Assembly (NCBI GenBank): GCA_018240635.1
Contig: JAFEFJ010000008.1
Span: forward strand, 1 to 36,413
Reading direction: 5' to 3'
DNA length: 36,413 nucleotides
Source: Pseudomonadota bacterium
Lineage (GTDB): Bacteria > Pseudomonadota > Alphaproteobacteria > Acetobacterales > Acetobacteraceae
Part shown: one piece after another, positions 22,621 to 24,622 of the stretch
How positions within the stretch are numbered: the stretch's first letter is position 1
How the letters are laid out: the number at the start of each line of letters is the position of its first letter
Translations under genes and position numbers: made by a program
Notes under the pieces: model-generated
Database searches by the model: none
Told to the model about the DNA's origin: nothing
The model's input: the letters and a program-made list of their open reading frames with translations, nothing else

Positions 22621-23931
22621 TCAGGCCAGGCGCGACAGCACGCTTTCGGCGGAAACTTCCGTCCGTTCCCCGGTGGCGCGGCGCTTGAGCTCCACCGTGC
22701 CGGCGGCCGCGCCGCGGGGCCCGACGACGATCTGCCAGGGATGGCCCATCAGGTCGGCATCGGCGAACTTCACGCCCGCGCGCTCGTCGCGGTCGTCGTA
22801 GAGCACATTCGGCGCGAGCGCGTCGTAGAGGCGTTCGCAGGTCGCATCGCACGCCGCATCGCCCATCTTCAGGTTCAGGATGGCGGCGCGGAACGGCGCG
22901 ATGGAGTCGGGCCAGATGATGCCGGCGGCATCGTGGCTCGCCTCGATCACCGCGCCCACGAGGCGGGAGACGCCGATCCCGTAGCTGCCCATTTCGAGAT
23001 GCACCTGCTTGCCGTCCGGCCCCGCGACGGCGGCGTTCATCGCCTTGCTGTACTTGGTGCCGAAATAGAAGATGTGGCCGACCTCGATGCCGCGCCCCTC
23101 CCGCCTGCGGTCGGCGGCGAGCCGCTCGTAGGCGGCCGCGTCGTGCTTCTCGTCGGATGCGGCGTAGTGCGAGGTCATCATGCCGAAGAACTTCTCCAGA
23201 TCCTCGGCCGAGGCGTGGCTGAACGCGTCCGACGTGTAGTCGATCTCCTCGAACGCGGCGTCGTACCACACCTGGCTTTCGCCTGTGGGGGCCAGGATGA
23301 TGAATTCGTGGCTCAGGTCGCCTCCGATCGGACCGCTGTCCGCCGCCATCGGGATCGCCTTCAGGCCGAGGCGCTGGAAGGTGCGCATGTAGGCCAGCAT
23401 CATCTTGCGGTAGCTGACGACGGCGCCCGCGTAGTCGAGGTCGAAGCTGTAGGCATCCTTCATCAGGAATTCGCGCCCGCGCATCACGCCGAAGCGGGGG
23501 CGCACCTCGTCGCGGAACTTCCATTGGATATGATAGAGAATCTGCGGCACCTCGCGGTAGCTGCGCAGCGACTGGCGGACGATGTCGGTGATCATCTCCT
23601 CGTTGGTCGGCCCGAACAGCAGGTCGCGGTCATGGCGGTCGCGGATGCGCAGCATCTCCTTGCCGTAGTCCTCGTAGCGGCCGCTTTCGCGCCAGAGATC
23701 GGCCGACTGGATGGTGGGCATCAGCAGTTCCTGTGCGCCCGCCGCGTCCTGCTCCTCGCGCACGATGCGCTCGATGTTCTTGAGCACGCGGAAGCCCGCG
23801 GGCAGCCAGGCGTAGATGCCGGCGGCGGTCTGCCGCACCAGCCCCGCGCGGAGCATCAGCCGGTGGGAGGCGATCTGCGCCTCGGCCGGGGTTTCCTTCA
23901 GGGTCGGCAGCAGGCTGCGTGACAGGCGCAT
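22621..23931 (-). CDS. proS: Proline--tRNA ligase, short alphaproteobacterial type
   Basis: Class II aminoacyl-tRNA synthetase charging tRNA(Pro), 436 aa. The N-terminus [22 protein letters not shown] leads to motif 1 and PAGFRVL. Motif 2 is [21 protein letters not shown] (landmarks [10 protein letters not shown] and REFLMKD), and motif 3 is [18 protein letters not shown]-terminal anticodon-binding domain ends at SVLSRLA. E. coli-type ProRS is about 570 aa because of an inserted editing domain. Here the space between motifs 2 and 3 is too short for it, as known for alphaproteobacteria, so misformed Ala-tRNA(Pro) should be cleared by a free-standing ProXp-ala-type protein encoded elsewhere. 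It is first of proS-lolC-lolD. Confidence 0.97.
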
Positions 23932-24135: not shown

Positions 24136-24175
24136 AATAAAGAAAAGGCCCGCGCGCCTCTAGGCGCAGCGGGCC
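24136..24175 (-). terminator. Intrinsic terminator, minus strand
   Basis: On the minus strand the stem pairs GGCCCGC with GCGGGCC and GGCGC with GCGCC (12 bp, one bulged T), with a TAGA loop, followed directly by TTTTCTTTATT. This is the clearest Rho-independent terminator in the window. It would end the candidate small RNA or any read-through from the nuo-to-DUF1467 run before proS. Confidence 0.85.
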
Positions 24176-24247
24176 AAGTTTGGGGAGGAAACGCCAGTCA
24201 CACGGCAGGTCGAGGAGCAGTCCTCTTCCTGACCAGGATGATGGCTC
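24136..24247 (-). ncRNA. Candidate small RNA with an anti-Shine-Dalgarno hairpin loop
   Basis: Read on the minus strand, three hairpins follow in order. First, 24231-24206: CAGG-AA-GAGGA, loop CTGC, TCCTC-GA-CCTG. Second, 24192-24178: GTTT, loop CCTCCCC, AAAC, which exposes a sequence complementary to ribosome sites such as GGGGAGG. Third, a strong intrinsic terminator at 24175-24147 with TTTTCTTTATT. CU-rich loops that block ribosome sites, followed by a terminator, are the known layout of several alphaproteobacterial trans-acting small RNAs. A weak promoter predicts a start near 24247, so the RNA would be about 110 bases. No open reading frame explains this stretch. The 5' end is uncertain; it could instead be the tail of the DUF1467 message. 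Confidence 0.45.
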
Positions 24248-24254
24248 GGCACCG

Positions 24255-24283
24255 GTAATCGGTCCATCGAAAAACAGCGTCGA
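24255..24283 (-). promoter_or_regulatory. Weak candidate promoter of the small RNA
   Basis: TCGACG (24283-24278), 17 bases, GATTAC (24260-24255) on the minus strand. It matches the -35 at 4 of 6 and the -10 at 3 of 6. Its value is its place: between the hairpin at 24290-24318 and the small-RNA candidate. Confidence 0.25.
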
Positions 24284-24289
24284 TTGCTG

Positions 24290-24318
24290 GCAAAATGCGC
24301 CCTCTGGGCGCATTTTGC
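24290..24318. terminator. Symmetric (bidirectional) intrinsic terminator after DUF1467
   Basis: GCAAAATGCGCCC, a 3-base loop and GGGCGCATTTTGC form a perfect 13-bp stem. The A-run on one side and T-run on the other allow termination in both directions. On the minus strand it lies 43 bases past the DUF1467 stop and probably ends that transcript. Confidence 0.75.
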
Positions 24319-24361: not shown

Positions 24362-24622
24362 CTATTGGTCAGGCATCGCCCAATAGCCGTGGCGGAAGCT
24401 GATCCAGTCGCTCGTGATCAGCAGGTAGGCGCCTCCCCAGACCACTGCGGCAACCAGAGTCGTCGCGATCACTTTGCGGAGCAGAAGCGGACGCTGCGGC
24501 GCGCCGCGCCAGCCGGTCTGCGAGTCCGCTTCCGACACGGGGCGCGTGCCGAAGGGCAGCACCGCGAACAGCACCGTCCACCAGATGAGGATGTAGAGGA
24601 CGACGCCGGTGAACCAGTTCAT
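24362..24622 (-). CDS. DUF1467 family small membrane protein
   Basis: Small integral membrane protein of unknown function, 86 aa, typical for DUF1467. There are two membrane segments, about residues 6-24 (GVVLYILIWWTVLFAVLPF) and 50-70 (KVIATTLVAAVVWGGAYLLIT). Between them is the family stretch PFGTRPVSEADSQTGWRGAP (positions 23-42), rich in polar residues. The ATG at 24622 lacks a clear ribosome site, and a REP-like palindrome begins 7 bases upstream. It follows RNase J on the same strand by 107 bp. In alphaproteobacteria this family is often found between RNase J and proS, as here; the reason is not known to me. Confidence 0.88.
   Translation of the reverse strand: MNWFTGVVLYILIWWTVLFAVLPFGTRPVSEADSQTGWRGAPQRPLLLRKVIATTLVAAVVWGGAYLLITSDWISFRHGYWAMPDQ

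Follow-up and report, generated by a model that had tools for sequence, protein, structure and literature searches.

The window, by which we mean the whole stretch of DNA analysed here, comprises 36,413 nucleotides of a contig from a member of the Acetobacteraceae. On its minus strand, the interval between a DUF1467 gene and proS holds a series of elements that read, in the order of that strand, as a 13-bp palindrome, TGGACC, 17 bases, CATCAT, a 5′ hairpin, a small GCCG/TGGC stem, a CU-rich stretch that we refer to as the seed, AAACTT and a terminator (Table 1). An imperfect 5′ hairpin, a CCTCCCC run and a strong terminator had been picked out here in the initial annotation, and all three are indeed present on the minus strand. 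Judged from its sequence, this element beside proS is a genuine and strongly conserved small RNA (sRNA) gene of the alpha-r8 (SuhB/MmgR) family.

Table 1. Features of the sRNA locus and its neighbours, in the order of the minus strand
Feature	Position	Strand	Basis or remark
DUF1467 gene (PF07330), conserved upstream neighbour	24362..24622	-	
13-bp palindrome between the DUF1467 gene and the sRNA, likely terminator of the former	24290..24318	-	-22.8 kcal/mol, z -6.7
-35-like element TGGACC	24261..24266	-	17-nt spacer to the -10-like element
-10-like element CATCAT (in relatives CATCAT/AATCAT/CATTAT)	24238..24243	-	predicted start at about 24230
Predicted sRNA transcript, alpha-r8 (suhB/MmgR) type, about 88-92 nt	24142..24231	-	RF00519 match, orthologues, fold
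5′ hairpin CAGGAAGAGG...CCTCGACCTG, full sequence CAGGAAGAGGACTGCTCCTCGACCTG	24206..24231	-	compensatory changes in orthologues
Lineage signature CTGCCGTGTGACTGGCGTTTCCTCCC, which takes in the small GCCG/TGGC stem of RF00519	24183..24208	-	near-invariant in 64 orthologues
Seed UUUCCUCCCC (DNA reading TTTCCTCCCC), predicted unpaired	24182..24191	-	alpha-r8 10-mer UUUCCUCCCU except for C as the final base
Intrinsic terminator stem-loop, 12 pairs	24147..24175	-	stem kept in relatives with base changes
Terminator U-rich tract, a possible anchor for Hfq	24138..24146	-	sequence; putative Hfq role from PMC12559287 and PMC6563040
proS, prolyl-tRNA synthetase, conserved downstream neighbour	22621..23931	-	

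The palindrome (24318-24290) is terminator-like, which agrees with the earlier proposal of a separate terminator upstream of the RNA. The -35-like element that follows it is a weak sigma-70 match; TGGAC stands at the equivalent place in 41 of the 68 orthologous loci that form our synteny set, 17-18 bases from a -10-like element, and other sequences are found instead in part of the proS-linked family. These conserved promoter elements and their spacing place the 5′ end near position 24230, the terminator sets the 3′ end, and the transcript would thus be close to 88-92 nt long. An RNA of about 110 bases had been proposed for positions 24136-24247, and the sRNA does lie inside this interval, but with a start near 24230 the part from 24247 to 24232 would be promoter and not transcript. 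At the other end, the terminator stem is followed by a TTTTCTTT tail (24175-24138, minus strand) and lies directly 3′ of the core, a position that is itself an alpha-r8 feature. Its description as the best intrinsic terminator of the window was too generous, since the stem is strong, yet a simple scan puts other sites higher.

This arrangement bears on whether the RNA could instead be a processed fragment of the 3′UTR of the DUF1467 mRNA, with no transcript of its own. DUF1467 lies directly upstream in 57 of the 68 loci, always in the orientation of the sRNA, as such an origin would predict, but a terminator-like palindrome and a conserved promoter with its -35 and -10 elements at the right spacing intervene, and 11 of the 68 loci keep the sRNA where DUF1467 was not detected; we therefore regard an origin from this 3′UTR as very unlikely. 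The downstream gene raises a different possibility, namely that the element acts in cis as a proS leader, in the manner of an attenuator or riboswitch, its terminator stopping or allowing transcription between the promoter and proS. The co-oriented proS is found downstream in 62 of the 68 loci, most often at 170-300 nt; however, its distance varies from 77 to 1280 nt and exceeds 1.1 kb in seven loci, which makes a leader highly improbable. Members of the same RNA family also stand alone beside an N-formylglutamate amidohydrolase (FGase) gene and elsewhere in the same genomes, no antiterminator that could replace the very stable terminator appears in the predicted folds, and the invariant part is an unpaired anti-Shine-Dalgarno (anti-SD) seed.

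Of 299 genomes from the same family, 215 contain DNA homologous to the sRNA, and conservation was assessed in a set of 64 non-redundant orthologues. In these CTGCCGTGTGACTGGCGTTTCCTCCC-AAACTTGG is almost invariant and a near-invariant block of about 35 nt runs from CTG.CGTGTGACTGG through GTTTCCTCCC.AAACTTGG, with core columns that are mostly 97-100% conserved as against a mean of 42% in the upstream flank. The pattern is the opposite of one in which the terminator alone is kept while loop and stems drift: CCTCCC is invariant in the 64 orthologues and it is the terminator sequence that varies. A conserved peptide was considered as an explanation and is unlikely, because the hairpin loop and the terminator, in otherwise invariant DNA, accept indels of any length.

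The signature CTGCCGTGTGACTGGCGTTTCCTCCC also defines the host range. Scanning one genome per species gave exact matches in at least 118 stretches, the named cultured carriers being Roseomonas and the genera split off from it, Belnapia, Acidocella, Acidiphilium, Elioraea, Acidisphaera, Rhodovarius and similar Acetobacteraceae. Among 200 genomes of the order it occurs in 85, as a single copy each and all within the same family, and it is absent, at up to three mismatches, from all 380 genomes scanned that represent other families of the class. The sphingomonad setting assumed at the outset thus gives way to the Acetobacteraceae. A search of plasmids for the element returned no match. Twelve genomes were picked because the homologue search had given no copy or a very weak one, and 11 of them (L310-L320) have neither DUF1467 nor the sRNA ahead of proS. 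In these 11, DUF1467 and the proS-linked sRNA seem to have been gained or lost together. In the twelfth, at locus L309, DUF1467 is present and a decayed copy lies about 316 nt upstream of proS, with the core GGCGTTTCCTCCCCAAACCTGG kept and the invariant CTGCCGTGTGACTGGC lost.

The 116-nt stretch folds with a minimum free energy (MFE) of -54.5 kcal/mol (z = -4.2), which none of 200 shuffles equalled, and the predicted transcript from 24230 to 24142 gives z = -3.45. When pairing was anchored across the 64 orthologues, the 5′ hairpin showed compensatory changes at 7 of its 10 pair positions and a paired fraction of 0.906, compared with 0.854 (maximum 0.876) in 500 arm shuffles. This hairpin is therefore kept through pairing and not through sequence, and the terminator likewise keeps its stem while bases change. 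RNAalifold, run on a MAFFT alignment, missed the hairpin because its loops were misaligned there, and it was the anchored pairing that recovered it. The seed, which reads UUUCCUCCCC in this strain and UUUCCUCCCU in most orthologues, has a predicted unpaired probability of 0.69-0.99 per base in the full RNA, as expected of the unpaired core of alpha-r8 RNAs. It had been drawn as the loop of a GTTT-CCTCCCC-AAAC hairpin, a structure that the folds do not bear out, as the segment folded by itself yields an MFE of 0 and the full-RNA fold leaves most seed bases unpaired. The four proposed GTTT/AAAC pairs are essentially invariant across orthologues, so that covariation cannot support this stem. In these models the most likely state of the seed is single-stranded, like that of Caulobacter SisA, and not a 4-bp hairpin.

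No Rfam family matches the window sequence at its gathering score. At a relaxed threshold the top match is RF00519 suhB (38.4 bits, E 1.2e-6, positions 24213-24132 against model positions 1-77), the family of the 'makes more granules regulator', MmgR, otherwise alpha-r8. The window copy falls 2.6 bits below the RF00519 gathering score (41 bits, a curated cut-off for inclusion and not a biological trait), and for this reason family membership rests on the orthologues: 14 of the 19 proS-linked orthologues tested reach at least 41 bits (41.1-54.5 bits), and several of those tested are 86-92% identical to the window sequence. Linkage to FGase, usual in species with a single copy though not required of siblings, is absent at the proS-linked window copy. 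Models of the AbcR type (alpha-r15) gave no match to the window sequence at E up to 10, and the Betaproteobacteria toxic small RNA (RF02278) scored 19.3 bits against a threshold of 50.

A canonical alpha-r8 copy is present in the same genome (L113:1881-1953, plus strand, contig C297; RF00519 55.8 bits) and adjoins an FGase gene (PF05013, E 3e-76), the canonical neighbour of alpha-r8 RNAs (PMC12559287), which makes the window copy the second sibling, linked to proS. The C297 copy has a 5′ hairpin of its own and a possible TTGCGG-17-TAGATT promoter. A TTCTTGGACGTTTCCTCCCTAAACT block is common to the FGase-linked copies of many relatives and CTGCCGTGTGACTGGCGTTTCCTCCC to the proS-linked ones; the two are long-separated siblings with the same seed.

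The proposal of an independent sRNA with a CU-rich anti-SD seed is thus strongly supported, because the sequence is conserved far above its surroundings, the 5′ stem covaries, a conserved promoter and terminator of its own are present and a known family is matched. Overall, the element is very probably a trans-acting alpha-r8 (RF00519) sRNA of about 90 nt, an Acetobacteraceae-specific, proS-linked sibling that acts as an anti-SD repressor. It represents no new type of sRNA but an already described family, here at a locus specific to its lineage.

Its mode of action can be outlined by analogy. The promoter and terminator would yield an RNA of about 90 nt in which the 5′ hairpin and the small second stem leave the seed UUUCCUCCCC unpaired, while the terminator with its U tail would serve to bind Hfq. 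The seed, to which AAACUUGG adds further bases 3′ and GGCG further bases 5′, may then pair with Shine-Dalgarno regions and block translation, and its targets are probably numerous mRNAs for nutrient uptake and carbon use. In Caulobacter, SisA is bound by Hfq and represses many mRNAs, its UUUCCUCCCU core pairing upstream of start codons, and for one target the pairing has been shown with point mutations on both sides (PMC12559287); SuhB of Sphingopyxis represses thnR translation with Hfq (PMC6563040). Because the window RNA exposes the same core as SisA does, Hfq-assisted pairing that blocks translation, as in these two RNAs, would most likely be its mode too, and the suggestion that it represses many ribosome sites is plausible.

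Targets were sought in the same genome by sequence patterns. There are 23 GGGGAGGA-N2-9-ATG sites compared with 2 in a reversed control, and 18 of the 23 stand ahead of open frames with at least 75 aa; the genes behind GGGGAGGA sites include those for solute-binding proteins, a branched-chain amino acid permease, an iron permease, ilvD and a sugar kinase. Such sites are common because they are ordinary ribosome sites, and seed complementarity alone therefore identifies no targets. The best predicted target came to light because the RNA model weakly matched the antisense strand of its leader: this is the leader GGCCAAGTTCAGGGAGGAAACACCATCATG of an MFS transporter (PF07690; L336, C208:3121-3146, plus strand), in which 21 of 24 positions are complementary to the sRNA, a match that extends well past the ribosome site. 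Pairing is predicted at -41.6 kcal/mol with the window core and -36.8 kcal/mol with the C297 sibling. With GGGAGGAA fixed, at least 13 matches among the other 16 positions would be expected with a probability of 4e-6 to 1.5e-5, for a pairing window chosen post hoc. Extended across the Acetobacteraceae, the search for conserved targets returned mostly the antisense strand of other alpha-r8 copies and left a few leaders of transporters or solute-binding proteins, and no one gene was retained from genus to genus.

Alpha-r8 RNAs are known partners of the sponge CrfA (PMC12559287), and the window RNA might accordingly be thought of as a sponge or decoy and not as a repressor that pairs with mRNAs. 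Its polarity makes this exceedingly unlikely, as it is CU-rich like SisA whereas CrfA is GA-rich. The near-complementary sites for the extended core in the same genome are the two sRNA loci themselves and one further site, which is an mRNA leader, and a search of this genome revealed no sponge-like RNA.

Set beside its relatives, the RNA agrees with RF00519 suhB/MmgR, as in Sinorhizobium meliloti, in a covariance match over the whole model, the GGCGUUUcCUCCC core followed by A.ACUU, the small stem before the seed and the terminator. It differs in being proS-linked and not FGase-linked, in an extra conserved 5′ hairpin upstream of the model, in an Acetobacteraceae-specific CTGCCGTGTGACTGGC block and, in this strain, in the C and not U that ends the 10-mer. 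With SisA-D of Caulobacter crescentus it shares the unpaired UUUCCUCCC(U) seed, the terminator and the occurrence of several siblings per genome at separate loci, one of them beside FGase, although the loci differ and no CrfA-like sponge was found in the window genome; within SisA-D, Hfq binding and targets have been shown for SisA only (PMC12559287). SuhB of Sphingopyxis granuli bears the same name and represses translation by Hfq-dependent pairing with an mRNA 5′ leader, but is 61 nt long and comes from another bacterial order; the comparison concerns name and mode (PMC6563040). AbcR1/2 (alpha-r15) and NfeR1 also use CU-rich anti-SD motifs on transporter mRNAs (PMC8844928), but belong to another family and carry their seeds in a hairpin loop (CUCCUCCC) and between stems.

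The one feature unexplained by the known seed mechanism is the frozen CTGCCGTGTGACTGGC, the 16 nt before the seed, which in proS-linked copies is as frozen as the seed itself. This would suggest a second contact, with a protein or a dedicated partner RNA, or through a much longer obligatory pairing with one specific, conserved target. We tentatively consider, as a reading that is more doubtful than probable, that the proS-linked RNAs form a distinct alpha-r8 subfamily confined to the Acetobacteraceae, in which CTGCCGTGTGACTGGC makes a second contact absent from other alpha-r8 RNAs and labour is divided with the FGase-linked sibling. Our literature searches yielded no paper on an alpha-r8 RNA in the Acetobacteraceae. 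The family comprises bacteria of acid mines, soil and water and the wider relatives of acetic acid bacteria, and the fixed, easily recognised locus offers a testable entry to how this family controls nutrient uptake after transcription. With two siblings in one genome whose invariant 5′ parts differ, it also becomes possible to ask whether duplicated anti-SD sRNAs share or divide their targets, a question left open by the Caulobacter SisA-D paper (PMC12559287).

Two further elements were observed. In one relative, tandem alpha-r8 copies lie about 250 bases apart (L048, contig C4 of G098). In the window genome itself, a third RF00519-like element (L114, C310:6921-7000, minus strand) scores 27.2 bits, below the cut-off; it reads ATATTCCTCCCCCGAAAACTCATGG, has a strong GC terminator and its T run after it and TTGACG and TAGATC before it, and is possibly another anti-SD sRNA of a different type.
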